Position numbers and translations under genes: made by a program
DNA from: Microlunatus capsulatus
GTDB lineage: Bacteria > Actinomycetota > Actinomycetes > Propionibacteriales > Propionibacteriaceae
Length of the DNA stretch: 64,000 nucleotides
Direction of reading: 5' to 3'
Assembly: GCF_017876495.1 (NCBI RefSeq)
Contig: NZ_JAGIOB010000001.1
Coordinates: forward strand, 372,001 to 436,000
Notes under the pieces: generated by a model
Database searches by the model: none
What the model was told of the DNA's origin: nothing
The model's input: only the letters and a program-made list of their open reading frames with translations
Shown here: in pieces, positions 35,373 through 64,000 of the stretch
How positions within the stretch are numbered: the stretch's first letter is position 1
Layout: every line of letters starts with the position of its first letter

Positions 35373-37172
35373 TCAGCCCTGGGCGGCGGCGGCGGCCGCG
35401 GCGGGCACGGCCGGGGCGTCCACCCCGGCCTCCTTGCGCTGCTGGGCCGTGATCGGCGCCGGCGCGTCGGTCAGCGGGTCGACCCCGCCGCCCGACTTCG
35501 GGAAGGCGATGACGTCGCGGATCGAGTCCATGCCCGAGAGCAGGGCGCAGATCCGGTCCCAGCCGAAGGCGATCCCGCCGTGCGGCGGAGCCCCGAAGCT
35601 GAAGGCGTCGAGCAGGAAGCCGAACTTCTCCTGCGCCTCCTCGGCCGAGAGGCCCATCACCGCGAACACCCGCTCCTGGATGTCGCGGCGGTGGATGCGG
35701 ATGGAGCCGCCGCCGATCTCGTTGCCGTTGCAGACGATGTCGTAGGCGTAGGCCAGCGCGTGGCCCGGGTCGGTGTCGAAGGTCTCCAGCGACTCCGGCT
35801 TGGGCGAGGTGAAGGCGTGGTGCACCGCGGTCCAGGCGCCGCTGCCGACGGCGACGTCACCCGCGGCGACGGCCTGGCTGGCCGGCTCGAACAGCGGCGC
35901 GTCGACGACCCAGCCGAACGCCCAGGCGCTGGTGTCGACCAGCCCGACCCGGTGGCCGATCTCGAGCCGGGTGGCGCCGAGCAGCGACTGGGCCTGGGAC
36001 CGGGCGCCGGCGGCGAAGAACACGCAGTCCCCCGGCCGGGCGCCGACCTGCGCGGCCAGGCCGGCCCGCTCGCCCTCGGACAGGTTCTTGGCGACAGGAC
36101 CGCCCAGCTCGCCGTCCTCGCCGACGAGCACGTAGGCCAGCCCGCGGTGGCCGCGCTGCTTGGCGAACTCCTGCCAGGCGTCCAGCTGCTTGCGGGGCTG
36201 CGAGGCACCACCGGGCATCACCACGGCGCCGACGTACTCGGCCTGGAAGACGCGGAAGGGCGTCTCGGCGAAGTACCCGGTCACCTCGGTGATCTCGTTG
36301 CCGAAGCGCAGGTCGGGCTTGTCCGAGCCGTAGCGCGCCATGGCGTCGGCGTAGGTGATCCGCGGGAACGGCGCGTGCAGCTCGACCCCGATGAGGGCCC
36401 AGATGCGCGTCAGCAGCTCCTCGCTCAGCTCGATGATGTCGTCCTGGTCGACGAAGCTCATCTCGACGTCGAGCTGGGTGAACTCGGGCTGCCGGTCGGC
36501 GCGGAAGTCCTCGTCGCGGTAGCAGCGCGCGATCTGGAAGTAGCGCTCCATGCCCGCGACCATCAGCAGCTGCTTGAACAGCTGCGGGCTCTGCGGCAGG
36601 GCGTACCAGGAGCCGGGCTTGAGCCGCGCCGGGACGAGGAAGTCGCGCGCGCCCTCCGGCGTCGAGCGCGTCAGGGTGGGCGTCTCGATCTCGACGAACG
36701 ACCGGTCGGCGAGGGTGTTGCGGGCGACCCGGTTCACCTCGCTGCGCAGCCGCAGGGCCGCCGCCTGAGCGGGCCGGCGCAGGTCGAGGTAGCGGTACTT
36801 GAGGCGGGCCTCCTCCCCGACGGTGACCCGCTCGTCGATCTGGAACGGCAGCGGCGCGGCGGTGCTGAGCACCTCGAGCTCGCTGGTGACGACCTCGACG
36901 GCGCCGGTGGGCAGGTCCGGGTTCGCGTTGCCCTCGGGCCGCAGCGAGACCTCGCCGACGACCTTGATGCAGTACTCGTTGCGGAGGTCGTGCGCGCCGG
37001 AGGCCTCCAGCGTCTCGTCCCGCACCACCACCTGGACGACCCCGGTGGCGTCGCGCACGTCGAGGAAGGCCACCCCTCCGTGGTCTCGGCGGCGGGCGAC
37101 CCAGCCGGCCAGGGTGACGGTGGTTCCAGCGTGCTCGGCCCCGAGGGTGCCGGCGCCGTGGGTGCGGATCAC
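35373..37172 (-). CDS. aspS: Aspartyl-tRNA synthetase
   Basis: A 599-residue class IIb synthetase of the bacterial type. An N-terminal OB fold ([19 protein letters not shown]) is followed by the catalytic core with [18 protein letters not shown], motif 2 in [19 protein letters not shown] and motif 3 in GIAFGWDRI. The GAD insertion domain lies in the middle (about 290-420). An Ala-rich tail of about 10 residues ends the protein. GTG 37172 has GGAAGGAAG upstream. Whether it is discriminating or also charges tRNA-Asn is not visible. Confidence 0.96.
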
Positions 37173-55478: not shown

Positions 55479-57839
55479 TTACCGCGGGATGCGCCACCGC
55501 GGCGTCGTCGGCTTGATCTTCCACTCCACCGTCGACCACTGGCTGCGGGCCGCGGCGCGCATCAGCGGGATGTCCGGGCTGACCGCGACGGGGTGCCCGA
55601 CGGTCTGCAGCATCGGCAGGTCGGCCTGGGAGTCGGCGTAGGCGAAGCTGCGGGTGAGGTCGACGCCGTGCAGCGAGGCGTAGTGCTTGAGCCAGGCGGC
55701 GCGGGACTCCCCCACCAGCGGCGGGCGGGCCAGGAAGCCGGTGCAGCGGCCGTCGGCGTCGGTGGCCAGCTCGGCCGCGACGACGACGTCGAAGTACTGG
55801 CGCAGCGGCCGGGTGAGCGTCTCGACGGCCCCGGTGATGAGGATCGTCGTGTGGCCGGCGGCCCGGTGCTCCTGGATCCGCGCGAGCGCCTCGGGCGAGA
55901 CCCGGCTGAGGATGGCCGGGGCCATCGTCGTGTCGACGCGGTGCTCGAGGTCGGCGAGGTCGAGGCCGCGGTAGCGGCGGTAGACCGCACGCAGGAAGTC
56001 CCCGCGGTCGCGCTGCTCGGCCAGCAGGTAGCCGGGCAGCCGGCGGGCGACCTGGCCGACCTCGGCCACCTGGGCGGCGGTCGAGAGCTCGGGCAGCCGC
56101 GACCACAGGTACTGCTCCACCACGTTGGTGGACATGATCGTGCCGTCGAGGTCGAAGATCGCGACGGCGGAGGACCCGGCGGTGTCCCGGCTGAGGTCCT
56201 TCATGGTGCTCGGCCGGGCCCCGCGCTTCTTGCGCAGGGCGTCCATCCGCCGCACCGAGGTGGTGATCGAGGGGCAGTGCACGTCCTCGATGTAGGTCTT
56301 CCAGTCGAAGACGGCGGTGTCGAAGGCGAAGGTGGCGACGTCGTCGGGGTGCAGCGAGCGGGTCAGGGCCAGCGTGGCGTCGTCGACGAAGTGCAGCTCG
56401 GACTGCGCGTACTCGTTGTAGAGGCTGTGGTAGCGCTTGAAGAAGTCGAGCCGGCCGCGGAAGCGGTCGAGGCTGCGGGCGGCCTGCCGGGCCCGGTCCG
56501 AGCGGGGCGCGCGGGCGAGCACGCGCTCGGCCACCGAGTGCGCCAGCTCCGACGCGACGAGGAGCCGGCCCACCGAGGAGGAGCCCGGGAAGTCCCACTC
56601 GGGCAGCGGCTCCCCCGGCTTGGCGGTCCGCTCGAGCGGGTGCTCGGCGAAGTAGCGCCGGATGTGGTTGTACATGTCGGCGATCGTCAGCGGGTTCCGG
56701 GCGCCGGAGCTGACGTGGTAGTACTCGGGCCGGCCGACCGCGGGCTCGCTGGCGCAGACGGCGACGATGGCGTTGACGACGAGGTCGCACGGCACGATGT
56801 CGAGGACCGAGTCGGGCGAGCCCGGGAACTCCGGCAGCTCGCCGCGCCCGTAGGCCAGGATCAGCGGCTCGGCCATCTTGAAGCCCTCGATCCACCCCGG
56901 GTAGGGGTGCGCCCAGGACGACTCGACGATGGCGGGCCGCACGATCGAGACCCGGATGTCGGCACCCAGGTCGGCCACCACCCGCTCGCCGAGGGCCTTG
57001 GTGAAGGTGTAGACGTCGGTCCAGCCCAGCGAGCGGGCGCGCTCGGTCCCGGCCCGGACGAGCTCGGCCTGCACCCACTCGGTGCGCCGGCGCTCGGTGT
57101 CGGCGGCCGTGGTCAGGTAGCCGGCGCGGCGGTGCTGGCGCTCGGCCTCCTTGCGCAGCGCGGTGAGCCGCTCGGGCATCCGGGACTCGGCCTCGACGAG
57201 CTCGCGCATGGCCAGCCCCGCCGCGGTCTCGGCCTCGTAGTCGACGCTGTGCTCCTGCGGACCCTCCGGGATCGCGCCGCGCCGTCGGCCGGCGGTGTAG
57301 GCGGTGGAGATGTGCACGTAGTGCGGGACCGAGGTGGGCGTCCCGTCCTCGTCGCGGCAGGCCTCGAGCATCCGCTCCATCAGCGCCTTGGTGCCGACGA
57401 CGTTGGTGGTGAAGGCCTGGTCGATCGGCGGGTCGAACGAGACGTCGCCGGCGCAGTGGACCAGCACGTCGAGGTCGCGCGGTAGCGCGGGAACGTTCGG
57501 CAGGTCGCCCTCGATGACCTGGATGCGGCTGTCGACGAGCGCCTCGGCGCCCCCGGCCGCCTCGCGGACCTCGGCGAAGATCGCCTTCTTCACCAGCGAG
57601 ACCACCCGGTCGCGCGCCGCGGCGGAGCCCTTGCGGCGCACCAGCACCGCGGGCCGGGCGTCGGGGAGCTCGGTGAGGATCTTCCACAGCAGCTGCTCGC
57701 CGATGAACCCGGTCACCCCGGTCATGACGATGGTGCGACCGGCCAGGAGGTCGCGGAGCCGGCCGTCGAGCAGGGGGGCGGGGTCCGCCGGGTCGCGGAC
57801 GACCGTGGGGCGGGCGAAGGGGTCGGCGACAGCCGTCAT
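55479..57839 (-). CDS. Fatty acyl-CoA reductase-like SDR fused to a HAD-IB phosphatase
   Basis: A 786-residue two-enzyme fusion. The N-terminal half (about 35-400) is an extended SDR of the male-sterility/fatty acyl reductase type: TGVTGFIG at 40-47 and the catalytic YTFTK at 277-281. The C-terminal half (about 555-775) is a complete HAD-IB hydrolase: DLDGT at 563-567, Thr in ILITG near 669, Lys718 and DSQAD at 736-740. Such fusions occur in actinobacteria without a firmly known product; a reduced lipid and a phosphomonoester substrate are plausible. ATG 57839 overlaps the hisA stop (ATGA). Confidence 0.85.
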
Positions 57840-58600
57840 GGGGTGCGGTCCTCGGGGGTGGCGAGCGGCAGGGAGGCGGCGCGCAGGGCCTCCTCGATGG
57901 TGAAGTTGCCGACGTAGAGGGCGGTGCCGACGATCGCGCCCTCGACGCCGACGGGGACGAGGTCGCGCAGCGCGACCAGGTCCTCCAGGCTCGAGATGCC
58001 GCCGCTGGCCACGACGGGCGCCTCGGTCCGCGCGCAGACGTGCCGCAGCAGGTCGAGGTTGGGGCCGCTCAGCATCCCGTCGGAGGCGACGTCGGTGACG
58101 ACGAAGCGGGAGCAGCCGGCGCGGTCGAGGCGGTCGAGGGTCTCGTCGAGCTCACCGCCCTCCGACGTCCAGCCCCGGGCGGCGAGCCGGGTGCCGCGGA
58201 CGTCGAGGCCGATGGCGATCCGGTCGCCGTGGGTGCGGATGACCTCCTCGCACCACTCCGGGCGCTCGAGGGCCGCGGTGCCGATGTTGACCCGCCGGCA
58301 ACCGGTGGCCAGCGCCCGCTCGAGGGTCTCGTCGTCGCGGATGCCGCCGGACAGCTCCACCTCCAGGTGCAGGTGGGAGACGATCTCGGCGATGATCTCG
58401 GCGTTGCTGCCCTGGCCGAAGGCGGCGTCGAGGTCGACCAGGTGGATCCACTCCGCGCCGGCGTCCTGCCAGCGCTGGGCGGCGGCCCGCGGGTCCCCGA
58501 AAACCTTCTCCGAGCCGAGCCGACCCTGGACCAGCTGCACCGCCTGGCCGCCGGACACGTCGACGGCGGGCAGCAGCACCAACGGGTTCTGCGAATTCAC
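57836..58600 (-). CDS. hisA: Bifunctional HisA/TrpF phosphoribosyl isomerase A
   Basis: A 254-residue (beta/alpha)8 isomerase. The catalytic Asp residues sit in LLPAVDV (near 13) and [12 protein letters not shown] (near 172); phosphate loops are LSGGIRDD and ASGGISS. The [15 protein letters not shown] segment resembles the actinobacterial PriA (dual HisA and TrpF) type, so it probably serves both histidine and tryptophan synthesis. No other his gene adjoins it. GTG 58600 is preceded by TAGGGT at six bases. Confidence 0.93.
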
Positions 58601-58682: not shown

Positions 58683-59720
58683 TCAGCAGGCGACGGCCGC
58701 GAGGCCGAACCGGTCGCGGGCGGAGGCGCTCACCTGGCCGAGGAAGCGGCCCGAGTTCGCGGTGGCCCGCTCGGTGTACCAGCGCTCGTCGATGTCGCAG
58801 ACGAGCAGCTCGGCCGGGGTGTCGGCGAGCACGAGCGGCAGGGTGTGCACGACGGTGGAGGGGAAGCTGATGAGCCGGCGGGCCAGCACGCCGAGCCGGG
58901 CCGCGATCTCCAGGGGCAGGTCGGGCCGGACGACCTCGACGCCGAGGCCCTCGATCCGGGCGAGCTTGGCGTCGGACTCCTTGCGGTGGGCGAAGTAGCG
59001 GTCGACGGCGTACTGCTCGACGAGGCTGGCGACGCCGCCGTGGTAGGACTCGGCGTCGACGACGCCGGTCTCCACCAGCGAGGTGCCGATGAGGTCGGAG
59101 CCGAGCTTGACCTCGGGCACCGGGAAGCGGGACCGCACCCAGCCGAAGGTGTTGCGGCCCACCTCGACCCGGGGCAGCTCGACGTCGAGGCTGGTGAACA
59201 GCCGCAGCCGGCAGCCGGACTCCGGACCGATCCGGCGGCGGACCGAGCCGGAGATCTGGTCGCGGGCCAGCTGGCTGATCTGGCGCCGCTGGCCGGGGGT
59301 GGCGACGGTGTGCCAGCGCGACAGGTGCTCCCCCGCCACCCACTGCCGCGCGAACTCCAGGGTGGCGGTGCCGTCGTCGACGATCACCACCTCGGGCGCC
59401 CGGCTGATGCTCATCACCACCTGCAGGACGCCGGAGAACGGGTCCCCGACGACGAGCCGCTCGATCCCGGACAGCTCGCTGGCCAGGGACCGGACGGTGC
59501 GGGCGGTCGCCGCACCGCCCAGCCGCGGCTCGTGCCAGAGCACCTCGAGGCCGTCCTCGCGGGCCAGCGCGGACATCGCCCGCAGCTGGCGGCGCGAGGC
59601 CTCGTTCGTCGGGGCCAGGACGATGACGGTGAGGTCGTCCCGGGGCTCGCCGGCCTGGTGGGCCCACTCGACCACGTTCAGCAGCTGGGCGGGGCTCTCC
59701 ACCAGGGCCGACGAGCGCAC
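58683..59720 (-). CDS. Sialyltransferase-like glycosyltransferase (GT52-type features)
   Basis: A 345-residue protein predicted to be a GT-B glycosyltransferase. Motifs recall bacterial sialyltransferases: VIVDDGTATLEF (DDG at 115-117, possible catalytic base), YFAHRKES at 242-249 in the position of the usual HP motif, and FPSTVVHTLPLVLA at 286-299, matching the S/T motif that contacts CMP. The His-Pro proline is replaced (His-Arg). It starts two bases after the neuB stop, so a role in transferring the NeuB-derived nonulosonic acid is likely. Donor and acceptor are unknown. Confidence 0.7.
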   Translation of the reverse strand: MRSSALVESPAQLLNVVEWAHQAGEPRDDLTVIVLAPTNEASRRQLRAMSALAREDGLEVLWHEPRLGGAATARTVRSLASELSGIERLVVGDPFSGVLQVVMSISRAPEVVIVDDGTATLEFARQWVAGEHLSRWHTVATPGQRRQISQLARDQISGSVRRRIGPESGCRLRLFTSLDVELPRVEVGRNTFGWVRSRFPVPEVKLGSDLIGTSLVETGVVDAESYHGGVASLVEQYAVDRYFAHRKESDAKLARIEGLGVEVVRPDLPLEIAARLGVLARRLISFPSTVVHTLPLVLADTPAELLVCDIDERWYTERATANSGRFLGQVSASARDRFGLAAVAC

Positions 59721-59722
59721 GG

Positions 59723-60658
59723 TCAGCTGCCCGTGCTCGCGAGCTGCGGCTCGCTGCTGTCCTGCACCCGGCGCAGCTTCTTCATCGCGGCGAGCTCGCC
59801 GTCGTAGATCTTCTTGACCCCGTCGCCGAGGGACTCGGTGATGATCCGGACGTCGCGGACGAGCCGCTGCAGGCCGGGGGGCTCCACCGAGGCGGACTGG
59901 TCCGAGCCCCACATCGCGCGGTCGAGGGTGATGTGCCGCTCGACGAAGACGGCGCCGAGGGCGACGGCGGCCAGCGTGGTCTGCAGGCCGGTCTCGTGGC
60001 CGGAGTAGCCGATCGGGACGTTGGGGAACTCCGACTGCAGGGTGTGGATCATCCGCAGGTTCAGCTCGGTCGGCTTGGCCGGGTAGGTGCTCGTGGCGTG
60101 GCACATGACGATGTTCTCGCTGCCCAGCACCTCCACGGCGTGCCGGATCTGCTTGGGGGTCGACATGCCGGTGGAGAGGATGATCGTGCGGCCGGTGGCG
60201 CGCAGCCGGCGCAGCAGCTCGTCGTCGGTCAGCGAGGCCGAGGCGACCTTGTGGGCCGGCACGTCGAACTGCTCGAGGAAGTCGACGGCCTCGACGTCCC
60301 ACGGCGAGGCGAACCAGGCGATGCCGCGGGCGCGGGCGTGCTCGTCGATCTGGCGGTAGTCGTCGGCGTCGAACTCGACGCGGTGCCGGTAGTCGATGTA
60401 GGTCATCCGGCCCCAGGGGGTGTCCCGCTCGATGTCCCACTGGTCGCGGGGGGTGCAGATCTCGGGGGTGCGCTTCTGGAACTTGACGGCGTCGCAGCCG
60501 GCGGCGGCGGCCTGGTCGATGAGCGCGAAAGCGTTCGCGAGCTCGCCGTTGTGGTTGATGCCGATCTCGCCGGTGATGTACACCGGGTGGCCCGGTCCGA
60601 CGACGCGGTCGCCGAGGCGTCGCGTCGGTCCCTGGAGCAGCTGTGCGGAAGTGGTCAT
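59723..60658 (-). CDS. neuB: NeuB-type N-acetylneuraminate/nonulosonate synthase, lacking SAF domain
   Basis: A 311-residue TIM-barrel aldolase condensing phosphoenolpyruvate with a hexosamine to give a sialic-acid-like sugar. Conserved segments include ITGEIGINHNG (29-39), DAVKFQKRTP, ASPWDVEAV, LSTGMSTPKQI, YSGHETG and VERHITLDRAMWGSDQ. The chain ends near residue 311 in a charged helix; the C-terminal SAF (antifreeze-like) domain that normally covers the active site of the partner subunit is absent. ATG 60658 is chosen over an upstream shadow. It heads an operon with the sialyltransferase-like gene. Confidence 0.85.
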   Translation of the reverse strand: MTTSAQLLQGPTRRLGDRVVGPGHPVYITGEIGINHNGELANAFALIDQAAAAGCDAVKFQKRTPEICTPRDQWDIERDTPWGRMTYIDYRHRVEFDADDYRQIDEHARARGIAWFASPWDVEAVDFLEQFDVPAHKVASASLTDDELLRRLRATGRTIILSTGMSTPKQIRHAVEVLGSENIVMCHATSTYPAKPTELNLRMIHTLQSEFPNVPIGYSGHETGLQTTLAAVALGAVFVERHITLDRAMWGSDQSASVEPPGLQRLVRDVRIITESLGDGVKKIYDGELAAMKKLRRVQDSSEPQLASTGS

Positions 60659-60828
60659 GCCCGGAAAGTAGGCCGCCGAGGTGGCAGGACGGGTGCCGAC
60701 ACCTGAACGCCCGGAGAACACCAGCACACGCTTCGACCTCCGGTCCCCGCGGCGGGCCACGGTCGTTCACCCGCTGTTCAGACCGCGGTCCTCGTGCGCG
60801 CCCGGCCTGCTCCGGCACAGTACCGGGG

Positions 60829-61767
60829 GTGACCGCAGCCCCGGGGGACGCGCCCCCGCTCGACCGACCGCGCGGTCCCGTGCGCGGGTTCACCGACATC
60901 CCGGGCTGGTTCTACTGGCTCGACTACCTCCTCTTCCGCGCCCTGCTGCGCTCCCAGGCCGCGAGCCCGCCGGGGGTGCTGGTGGAGATCGGGGCCTACC
61001 TCGGCAAGAGCGCCGTGGTGATCGGCGAGCACGTCCGCCCGGGCGAGGAGCTCGTGGTGGTCGACCTGTTCGGCCGGACCGACCTGCTGCCCGGCTCCGC
61101 GGTGGCCGACGCGAACCGGGCCGAGGTGGACGGCTCCTACCGCACGCTGACCCGGCAGACCTTCGAGCAGAACTACCGGGCCCTGCACCCGCAGCTGCCG
61201 ACCGTCGTCGAGGGCCTCAGCGAGACCGTCGTCGACCACGTCGCGCCCGGCACCGCCCGCTTCGTGCACGTCGACGCCTCGCACCTCTTCGACGTCGTCC
61301 GCGCCGACATCGCACGCACCCGGGAGCTGCTGCGCCCCGGCGGTGTCGTCGTGCTCGACGACTGGCGCTCCGAGCACACCCCGGGCGTCGCCGCGGCGGT
61401 GTGGGAGGCGGTGCTCACCGGCGGCCTGGTCCCGGTGGCGCTGACGCCGCACAAGTTCTACGGCGTCTACGACGACCCGGCGCCGGCCCGGCGGGTGGTC
61501 GAGGACCTGGTCGCCGGCGACGCGGACCTGCGCAGCGCCACCCAGAGCATCGCGGGGCACGAGGTGCTGCGGCTGCGCCGGCTGGGCGCGAAGCCCGCCC
61601 CGGCGGGCCCCCGGCTCGACGACCGCGACCTCGACCGGCTGGCGGACCGGGTGGCCGAGCGGGTCGGCCGCCGGCTCGACGCGCGCCCGGCCCCCGCGCC
61701 CGCGCCGGCCCTCCGCGGCCGCGCCGGGCGAGCGCTCCGGGCGCTGCGCCGCCGGTCACCGTTCTGA
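60829..61767 (+). CDS. SAM-dependent methyltransferase (Methyltransf_24-like)
   Basis: A 312-residue class I methyltransferase. SAM motif I is VLVEIGAYLGKSAVVIGEH near residue 45, the acidic residue lies in VVVDLFG, and VHVDASHLFDVVRADI followed by VVLDDW are typical of the O-methyltransferase-like group found in glycan clusters. The C-terminal 60 residues are a basic, Pro/Ala/Arg-rich tail with a heptad-like stretch. GTG 60829 follows CACAGT at seven bases (weak leaderless match). It is divergent from neuB. A sugar O-methyl substrate is plausible. Confidence 0.78.
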   Translation: MTAAPGDAPPLDRPRGPVRGFTDIPGWFYWLDYLLFRALLRSQAASPPGVLVEIGAYLGKSAVVIGEHVRPGEELVVVDLFGRTDLLPGSAVADANRAEVDGSYRTLTRQTFEQNYRALHPQLPTVVEGLSETVVDHVAPGTARFVHVDASHLFDVVRADIARTRELLRPGGVVVLDDWRSEHTPGVAAAVWEAVLTGGLVPVALTPHKFYGVYDDPAPARRVVEDLVAGDADLRSATQSIAGHEVLRLRRLGAKPAPAGPRLDDRDLDRLADRVAERVGRRLDARPAPAPAPALRGRAGRALRALRRRSPF

Positions 61768-61825
61768 CAGGCAACGTTCACCGGGCGGCCACGGGTTCGG
61801 CCCCGACGCCCTCCCGCTGGTCCCC

Positions 61826-61838
61826 TACCGTCCCTCCG
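61826..61838 (+). promoter_or_regulatory. Likely leaderless promoter of the GT2 gene
   Basis: TACCGT (61826-61831) followed by seven bases and the GTG at 61839, with no ribosome-binding site. Confidence 0.45.
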
Positions 61839-62798
61839 GTGAGACGCCTGACCGTGGTCATCCCCTGCTACGACGTGGAGCGCTACGTCGGCCAGACCGT
61901 CGCGAGCCTGCGACGCAGCGCCAGCCCCGACGTCGAGTTCCTCTTCGTCGACGACGCCTCCACCGACGCCACCGCGGCGGTGCTCGAGGAGCAGCTCGAC
62001 ACCCTGCCGGGGGCGCGGCTGCTGCGGCTGCCGGCCAACCGGGGCCTCGCCGGCGCCCGCAACGCCGGCCTCGACGCGGCCGGCAGCGAGTACGTCACCT
62101 TCCTGGACGGCGACGACTTCGTCGGCCCGGGCTACTACCCGCAGCTGCTGGCCGTCGCCGAGCGGCTGCGCTGCGACCTCGTCCGCACCGACCACGTGCA
62201 GGTCAAGGGCCGCGAGCGCACCGTCCACCGGATCGGGCACGGCCCGCGCGGGGTCGTCGGCCGGCCGCGGGACGCGATCCTCCCGGTGCACCGCGTCACC
62301 TCCGTGGACGCGCCCTACGCCTGGGCCGGGATCTACCACCGCCGCCTCGTCGACGACGGGCTCCTGCACTTCTCCGAGCGGCTGCGCACCTGCGAGGACC
62401 GGCCCTGGATCTGGCGGCTGCACCTGCGGGCCGCCTCCTTCGCGGTGGTGGGCCTGCACGGCCTGTTCTACCGCCGTGGCGTGCCGGGCTCGCTGACCCA
62501 GGTGGCCGACGAGCGCCAGCTGGACTTCCTGCCGGCCTTCGACCAGATCCTCGAGCTGGTGAGCGGGGACCGCGACGCCGCGCTGCTGCTGCCCAAGGCC
62601 GTGCGCTCGTACTGCTCGATCCTGCTGCACCACCTGGCCCTCCGCGAGCGGTACGCGCCCGAGCTCGCGGCGGTCCTCGACGAGCGCTGCCGGGCCGCGC
62701 TCCGCCGGATGCCGGCGGGTCCGCTGGCGGCCGTCGTCGCCGGCCTCGACCCCGACCGGGCCGACCGGCTGCGCGCGCTGCAGGGGGTGGCGGCGTGA
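61839..62798 (+). CDS. Glycosyltransferase family 2 protein
   Basis: A 319-residue GT-A enzyme. The N-terminus RRLTVVIPCYDVERYVGQTV, the nucleotide-binding VDDASTDAT, RGLAGARNAG and the metal-binding DGDDFVG near residue 91 define GT2. EDRPWIW near residue 190 is the likely catalytic-base region. The C-terminal third is helical and variable. It lies 71 bases after the methyltransferase and overlaps the next gene by four bases (GTGA). Acceptor unknown; capsule or teichoic-type polymerases have similar architecture. Confidence 0.85.
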   Translation: MRRLTVVIPCYDVERYVGQTVASLRRSASPDVEFLFVDDASTDATAAVLEEQLDTLPGARLLRLPANRGLAGARNAGLDAAGSEYVTFLDGDDFVGPGYYPQLLAVAERLRCDLVRTDHVQVKGRERTVHRIGHGPRGVVGRPRDAILPVHRVTSVDAPYAWAGIYHRRLVDDGLLHFSERLRTCEDRPWIWRLHLRAASFAVVGLHGLFYRRGVPGSLTQVADERQLDFLPAFDQILELVSGDRDAALLLPKAVRSYCSILLHHLALRERYAPELAAVLDERCRAALRRMPAGPLAAVVAGLDPDRADRLRALQGVAA

Positions 62799-64000
62799 CG
62801 ACGCAGGTCTTCGTCGCCTCGACGGCCTTCGGGTTGGCAACCCTCACCGCGGCCCTGGAGGACGGGCTCTTCGACGCCGCCGACCGGCGCGTCCTCGTGC
62901 TCAGCACCAACGCGGCGGTCCCGGAGGCCGCGGTGGCGGTCACCGAGGTGGCCGGCGTCGACCGGCTGGCCGCGCGCTTCGACGCGGTGCACGACTACAA
63001 CCAGCTGATCGCCCCGCAGCACCCGTCGCTGTGGCGCCCGCGCGCGGCCGACCTGCCGCTGCTGGAGCGGATGGTGCGTCGCAGCTGGGACCTCGAGGGG
63101 GACGTCCACCTCGTCGTCGAGTGCGTGTGGACCGCGCCGTCGCTGACCCTGTGCCGGATCTTCGCCGACGCCCGGGTCGACGTCTACGCCGACGGGCTGA
63201 TGAGCTACGGGCCGACGCGCGACACCATCCCCGCGCAGGTCGCCTGCCGGCTCGAGCGGCTCCTGCACCTGGACCTCGTCCCCGGCCTGGTACCGGTCCT
63301 GCTCACCGAGTTCGGCGTCCCGGCGCAGACCATCTCGTCGGAGTCCTTCCGCACGGTCGTCGCCACCCTGGACCCCCCGCCGGCGGCGGTCGCCGACGCA
63401 CCCGCGCGGAGCGTCGCCGTCGTGCTCGGCCAGTACCTGGCGGCCCTCGACCTCGTCTCCGCCGAGGAGGAGGCGACCCTGGTGCGGGCCATGGTCCGGC
63501 ACACCGCCGCGGCCGGCTTCACCCGGATGGTGGTCAAGCCGCACCCCGGGGCCCCGCCCGCCCACGGCGCCCAGCTGCAGCACGAGGCCGCCCGGCTGGG
63601 CGTGGAGCTGACCTTCGTCGACGGACCGGCGCTGGTGGAGGCCTGGTTCCGCAGCCCCTCGGTGGGCCTCGTCGTCGGCTGCTTCTCCACGGCGCTGATG
63701 ACCGCGTCCAGCCTCTACGACCTGCCGGCCGCGCGGGTCGGGACCGAGCTGCTGATGGAGCGGCTCAAGCCCTACGAGAACAGCAACCGGGTGCCGCTGA
63801 CGGTCGTCGACGCCTGGCTCCCCGACCTGACCCGCTCGGTGGTGCCCGGGCCCGCCGCGCGCGGCGAGGTCGCGATCGGCGCGCTCGTCCGGGCGGTCAG
63901 CTACTGCATGCAGCCCGAGCGCTACCCCGCGCTGAGGCCCGGCGCCGAGGCCTTCCTGCGGACGCACTGGCCCGTGCTGGGCCGCTACTTCCGGCGGCGC
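62795..64000 (+). CDS. Polysialyltransferase-family protein (partial)
   Basis: The first 402 residues of a protein that continues beyond the window. Features fit the bacterial alpha-2,8-polysialyltransferase/GT-B group: YADGLMSYGP near 131-140 (acidic-Asp-Gly), MVVKPHPGAP with the HP motif at 250-251, and VVGCFSTALMTASS near 293-306 (S/T motif). GTG 62795 overlaps the GT2 stop. With neuB divergently nearby, it is a second candidate for adding nonulosonic acid, or for building a polymer. The acceptor is unknown. Confidence 0.72.
   Translation, partial: MTTQVFVASTAFGLATLTAALEDGLFDAADRRVLVLSTNAAVPEAAVAVTEVAGVDRLAARFDAVHDYNQLIAPQHPSLWRPRAADLPLLERMVRRSWDLEGDVHLVVECVWTAPSLTLCRIFADARVDVYADGLMSYGPTRDTIPAQVACRLERLLHLDLVPGLVPVLLTEFGVPAQTISSESFRTVVATLDPPPAAVADAPARSVAVVLGQYLAALDLVSAEEEATLVRAMVRHTAAAGFTRMVVKPHPGAPPAHGAQLQHEAARLGVELTFVDGPALVEAWFRSPSVGLVVGCFSTALMTASSLYDLPAARVGTELLMERLKPYENSNRVPLTVVDAWLPDLTRSVVPGPAARGEVAIGALVRAVSYCMQPERYPALRPGAEAFLRTHWPVLGRYFRRR

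Follow-up and report, generated by a model that had tools for sequence, protein, structure and literature searches.

Our analysis of a 64,000-nucleotide stretch of the Microlunatus capsulatus genome (the window; C1:372001-436000 of a one-contig genome of 4.41 Mb) makes it probable, in our judgement by a comfortable measure, that the glycan gene cluster within its histidine gene region, between hisA and hisH, holds most of a gene set, spread over two sites, that makes a phosphate-free wall polymer of the teichulosonic acid type containing the nonulosonic acid Kdn. The cluster (Table 1) consists of two units diverging from a promoter region near 60.7-60.9 kb, with a NeuB-type synthase and an orphan GT-B protein, here called GTx, running leftwards, and a methyltransferase, a GT2 glycosyltransferase and a PF07388 polysialyltransferase-family protein (polyST) running rightwards; it ends 1.4 kb to the right of the window, at a DUF6716 gene. 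A preliminary description of this DNA had given the window genes and their coordinates correctly, and its view of them as a nonulosonic-acid glycan locus that likely makes an envelope polymer is supported here and narrowed to Kdn with a precedent in Streptomyces. It had also reported that neuA was missing, which is true locally but not of the genome: the sole CTP_transf_3 protein over cut-off is encoded at C1:582911-584071, on the right-hand side as had been suggested, but 151 kb from the cluster and not adjacent to it. This protein, NeuA-HAD, is a cytidine monophosphate (CMP)-sugar synthetase fused to a C-terminal KdsC-like HAD phosphatase domain, and a second, convergent DUF6716 gene follows it. 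The genome thus does hold a CMP-sugar activation gene, and the apparently incomplete locus is now completed.

In the pathway that we propose, NeuB would condense mannose-6-phosphate and phosphoenolpyruvate to Kdn-9-phosphate, the HAD domain of NeuA-HAD would strip off the phosphate, and its N-terminal domain would make CMP-Kdn. Kdn would then be transferred from CMP-Kdn by GTx and polyST, with the GT2 enzyme and the DUF6716 proteins adding other sugars or extending the chain, and the methyltransferase decorating the polymer, which may be anchored to peptidoglycan by one of the four LCP-type ligases matched in the genome. Both sites would be switched on jointly at phosphate shortage, via PHO-box-like repeats. 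No exporter was identified at either site, where most neighbouring genes were not searched against Pfam.

The sugar is probably Kdn, a reading in which the specificity of NeuB for mannose-6-phosphate is deduced from the missing epimerase and the fused phosphatase. A neuC-type epimerase (PF02350) has no match in the whole genome, which bears out the earlier remark that neuC was not visible; the expectation of finding one falls away, since the Kdn route from mannose-6-phosphate and phosphoenolpyruvate through dephosphorylation to CMP activation needs no such enzyme. The CMP-Kdn pathway of Bacteroides thetaiotaomicron and Prymnesium parvum likewise comprises a synthase, a phosphatase and a CMP-synthetase with no NeuC (PMC6200933), although here, unlike there, the phosphatase is fused to the synthetase and no equivalog cut-off is reached. 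In a sample of 37 genomes, six of the 11 with GTx have no PF02350 match over cut-off, so an epimerase is not a requirement of the gene set. NeuB itself is the sole PF03102 match in the genome (266.6 bits against a cut-off of 22.1). It shows no further domain at an E-value of 0.1 except a sub-cut-off Amidohydro_2 match, SAF not being listed, and its alignment to 349-residue NeuB structures stops near residue 271 of the chain. The SAF domain of NeuB synthases contacts the N-acetyl group of N-acetylmannosamine, and its loss would fit mannose-6-phosphate as the substrate, if only as a hint. The accessible text of PMC6200933 contains no occurrence of a SAF domain, and our literature search found nothing usable on the specificity residues of Kdn-9-phosphate phosphatases.

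A polymer of this kind is already known. In Streptomyces coelicolor, SCO4873-SCO4882 are the teichulosonic acid genes, which PhoP targets when phosphate is limiting (PMC13011467), scarcity of phosphate inducing the polymer, and the S. lividans counterpart makes a phosphate-free polymer in place of teichoic acid (PMC8003754); both papers cite Ostash et al. 2014 as the source for this Kdn cluster. The polymer is composed of galactose and Kdn, often with N-acetylglucosamine (GlcNAc) or methyl groups (PMC11481543; PMC7831098), and teichulosonic acid has been described in Kribbella (PMC6113628), so that the earlier statement that sialic-acid-like surface glycans are little described in this kind of actinobacterium cannot be extended to actinobacteria in general. 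A broad literature search for nonulosonic acids in Actinobacteria contributed nothing further to this picture. SCO4878 is tabulated as a GT2 protein (PMC8269224), SCO4880 as a putative transferase and SCO4881 as a polysaccharide biosynthesis protein (PMC2267785). The Streptomyces block that we found fits SCO4873-SCO4882 as judged from published descriptions. Since the genome of the window has all six homologues (polyST, GT2, DUF6716, NeuA-HAD, NeuB and GTx), it is well supported that the locus joins this kind of Kdn wall-polymer cluster, which carries such genes beyond Streptomyces into a further lineage of actinobacteria. It departs from the Streptomyces type in that the set is split over two distant sites, one of them in the his region, and in that there are two DUF6716 genes; the displacement of NeuA-HAD and one DUF6716 gene is a matter of arrangement and not of gene content. 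For Microlunatus and Friedmanniella, no report of teichulosonic, Kdn or nonulosonic acid was among the matches listed in our literature search.

The order of the block is strongly conserved. A scan of named genomes yielded 80 loci, the best 80 of 576 confirmed matches, of which 69 have the exact order polyST(-) GT2(-) DUF6716(+) NeuA-HAD(+) NeuB(+) GTx(+); the six-gene block is seen in 72, and the four core genes lie inside the fetched stretch in 76. The highest identities (58-61%) are to Microlunatus parietis and to two metagenome-assembled genomes (MAGs), one of Friedmanniella, in which the genes are contiguous, and one of the Propionibacteriaceae; the remaining 77 loci come from Streptomyces plus one Actinacidiphila. 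The GT2 gene is paired with the PF07388 gene in the Streptomyces loci, and a Methyltransf_24 homologue occurs in 9 of the 80. A second sample, of 117 genomes of the family, contains a GTx match in 28 genomes (26 strong), fused NeuA-HAD in 26 (any NeuA match in 37), NeuB of at least 59% identity in 26 (any NeuB match in 45) and DUF6716 over cut-off in 27. Of the 28 genomes with at least one of NeuB, NeuA-HAD, DUF6716 and GTx, 24 have all four, a co-occurrence that is more than chance, although these are related genomes and the 24 are not independent cases. The tally omits the GTx matches in G114 (E 8.7e-35, broken into two pieces) and G051 (E 7.2e-4), 11 NeuA matches that lack the HAD half, 19 genomes whose NeuB reaches no more than 41% identity, and the sub-cut-off DUF6716 matches in G084 and G092. 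Some relatives have a single operon of DUF6716, NeuA-HAD, NeuB and GTx, and others have NeuB-GTx next to hisA, accompanied by GT2 and PF07388 genes that vary, and NeuA-HAD elsewhere: 70-155 kb along the contig that carries NeuB in eight genomes, including that of the window, 566 kb away in G008, and not within the fetched 21 kb in M. parietis. Within the genus the set is patchy, with a full GTx in four of nine genomes (the window's included), two pieces in G114 and none in the other four.

The GTx protein of the window matches no Pfam or NCBIfam family, and a scan of 50 members gave scattered weak matches only, among them one to Glyco_transf_52 (E 0.47) and one to DUF7861 (4e-4). Its predicted model (pLDDT 89.3, pTM 0.89) has a GT-B, sialyltransferase-like fold and is closest to the bacterial polysialyltransferase 5wc6/5wcn (Z 19.9/19.8, root-mean-square deviation 5.0-5.1, 318/317 residues aligned), the next structural entry being a UDP-GlcNAc 2-epimerase (Z 15.4); in Foldseek, sialyltransferases take all of the top five places, although their TM-scores are a modest 0.42-0.54. 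The model alignment held 50 sequences (the window's and 49 of the 80 loci), and a further alignment held 27. D115-D116-G117, H245-R246-x-E248 and P287-S288 show no variation, whether 20 or 50 sequences are aligned. Enzymes of GT38 and GT52 carry D/E-D/E-G, H-P and S motifs, which these residues recall. As in 5wc6/5wcn, the acidic D-D-G and the H motif lie about 129 residues apart in GTx, whereas the identity to 5wc6 is 11% and H-R-x-E stands in place of H-P. The GTx profile found nothing meaningful among PDB sequences and matched neither the polyST profile of the window's own PF07388 protein nor the epimerases. GTx is thus predicted to be polysialyltransferase-like by fold and not by sequence family, and is possibly a new transferase family. 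PolyST, for its part, scores 73.5 bits against a cut-off of 23.3, is the only PF07388 match in the genome, and keeps D133-G134, H250-P251 and S298-T299 invariant in 20 sequences. The preliminary description had called both GT-B proteins sialyltransferase-like, and this agrees with the family of the one and the predicted fold of the other, which did not turn out to be an unrelated one.

Joint control by phosphate is suggested by PHO-box-like repeats, which would link the two chromosomal sites and make phosphate control of the wall testable outside Streptomyces. With the consensus taken from PMC4415409 and PMC7244524, we scanned for GTTCACC-N4-GTTCACC, scored out of 14. Within 96 kb around the cluster, three sites score at least 12/14. 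That in the neuB/methyltransferase promoter has a score reached by none of 300 first-order random sequences; the others lie at 65489, upstream of DUF6716, and at 35808, inside an unrelated gene. An 11/14 site lies 42 bp before the NeuA-HAD match. Among relatives, which are not independent, scores of at least 11 occur upstream of NeuB in 7 of 12 regions and of NeuA-HAD in 5 of 14, whereas 31 of 362 gene starts used as controls reach that score (p 0.0012 for NeuB and 0.011 for NeuA-HAD in rank tests); the NeuB test covered 12 loci and the NeuA test 14 hand-picked genomes (M. parietis and 13 of the 26 that carry the fusion), and the 362 controls include cluster genes of relatives. As a positive control we took Streptomyces, where no site of at least 11 lies between GT2 and DUF6716 in either of two loci (L095 and L133) and one of 12/14 lies in front of the next gene to the left of polyST in L095; over 71 Streptomyces loci, 23 regions reach at least 11, against 46 of 355 random stretches. 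The simple consensus thus detects the published case only weakly. The repeats at both cluster promoters and before the distant neuA predict co-regulation of the two sites under phosphate control.

Several results weigh against parts of this interpretation. Five of the 11 GTx-bearing genomes in the sample of 37 do hold a PF02350 epimerase over cut-off. The best solved relative of NeuB, 6ncs, is equally short, of SAF-less length, and yet is labelled a sialic acid synthetase, because of which the absence of SAF can be taken only as a hint at mannose-6-phosphate. Neither NeuB nor NeuA-HAD reaches any NCBIfam equivalog cut-off, so that the substrate is not fixed by family membership: NeuB scores 241 bits for N-acetylneuraminate synthase (cut-off 400) and 209 for PseI (340), and NeuA-HAD 116 for PseF (206), 98 for KdsC (208) and 89.1 for the Kdn-9-phosphate phosphatase NF058599 (180), the last of these being why its HAD half is filed here as KdsC-like only. 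Several relatives (L044, L047, L048, G014, G015 and G009) show no PHO-box signal. Finally, PMC8269224 pairs the sialic acid synthase with SCO4880, while the gene order here implies SCO4881.

The alternative that survives best, although we regard it as unlikely, is that the sugar is N-acetylneuraminic acid or another N-acetylated product of the neuC route, and the polymer a capsule resembling polysialic acid. The polysialyltransferase family of PF07388 and the predicted fold of GTx would both suit such a capsule, and DUF6716 could be a hidden epimerase: the closest structures to the model made from the M. parietis orthologue (pLDDT 77.6) are UDP-GlcNAc 2-epimerases (Z 20.7), ahead of GT4 and TagF-type transferases (about 17). 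However, an alignment of 16 epimerases of the family sample conserves GDT, HxEAGxR, PEExNR, HR and DSG..E, and 21 DUF6716 sequences keep none of the motifs of the catalytic half; hhalign gives only a weak 84-column match to epimerases, in the nucleotide-binding half. We therefore rejected DUF6716 as a neuC in disguise, in spite of its epimerase-nearest model. Because these motifs are absent and DUF6716 conserves motifs of its own (K-x-R-x(4)-E-x(3)-H and S-S-x-A-x(2)-E), a role as a transferase is more likely, though not proven; its profile found nothing meaningful among PDB sequences and no match to the polyST profile. The genome's lack of PF02350 and the fused phosphatase, which suggests a phosphorylated intermediate, also speak against an N-acetylated sugar.

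Pseudaminic or legionaminic acid, attached for example to flagellin or another protein, is a very unlikely product. Among NCBIfam models the N-terminal half of NeuA-HAD does score best against PseF, but under the cut-off; no aminotransferase, dehydratase or acetyltransferase was called within the cluster (the genome was not searched for pseudaminic or legionaminic acid genes), and the clustering agrees with the Kdn wall-polymer block. That the set is a decayed remnant whose polymer is no longer made, as the remoteness of neuA and the two-piece matches in relatives (DUF6716 beside NeuA in G088, GTx in G114) might suggest, is hardly credible, given that all genes of the window are open from end to end, that GTx shares 92% and NeuB 97% identity with the G088 counterpart, that motifs are kept, and that the recurrence of the split in eight genomes means that the two-site arrangement is maintained.

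Under the Kdn reading, a conserved family that has no Pfam or NCBIfam model gains a testable function as CMP-Kdn transferase. A bolder combination, which we advance tentatively and think a little likelier to fail as a whole than to hold, is that GTx is the first recognized member of a CMP-Kdn transferase family with a polysialyltransferase-like fold, found in Streptomyces and Propionibacteriaceae-like actinobacteria, that GTx and DUF6716 form the invariant core of Kdn wall-polymer synthesis, and that outside Streptomyces scattered genes are united as a phosphate-starvation regulon for a wall polymer that is sialic-acid-like and free of phosphate. Specialists would find most to examine in GTx, which has no family, and in the division of the set between two sites.

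Genes were called with a codon-usage gene caller and domains assigned by Pfam and NCBIfam profile searches; hisA, hisH, hisB, hisC and hisD were named by the appearance of their sequences.

Table 1. Features of the glycan cluster and its borders, in window numbering.
Feature	Position	Strand	Remark
hisA	57836..58579	-	left border of cluster
GTx, orphan GT-B protein, 345 aa, proposed CMP-Kdn transferase	58683..59720	-	predicted fold; without Pfam/NCBIfam family
NeuB-type synthase without SAF domain, proposed Kdn-9-phosphate synthase	59723..60670	-	PF03102, E 2.6e-79
Second, weaker PHO-box-like repeat, divergent promoter	60702..60719	-	11/14
PHO-box-like direct repeat GTTCACC-N4-GTTCAGA, neuB/methyltransferase promoter	60765..60782	+	12/14
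Methyltransf_24 methyltransferase, proposed polymer O-methylation	60880..61767	+	PF13578, E 3.5e-15; start uncertain
GT2 glycosyltransferase, proposed hexose transferase	61776..62798	+	PF00535, E 1.6e-30
PF07388 polysialyltransferase-family protein (polyST)	62795..64183	+	E 3e-20; runs past window end at 64000
DUF6716 protein	64137..65441	-	E 1.5e-81; beyond window
HAD+DUF952 protein	65652..66611 (L002:9653-10612)		Pfam match

The convergent PF07388 and DUF6716 genes have the last 47 bp of their 3' ends in common (L002:6796-9442). To the right of DUF6716 follow the HAD+DUF952 gene and then hisH, hisB, hisC and hisD; the HAD+DUF952 gene, which separates the glycan cluster from hisH, adjoins hisH in three other loci too (L038, L039 and L040). 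Next to hisA, at 55479-57839 of the window, lies a gene for a 786-aa protein, to all appearances a reductase-HAD fusion, which is also found beside hisA in those relatives whose hisA was fetched alongside. At the second site, about 4.5 kb before NeuA-HAD, C1:577235-578431 encodes a protein whose sequence resembles a Pit-type phosphate transporter.

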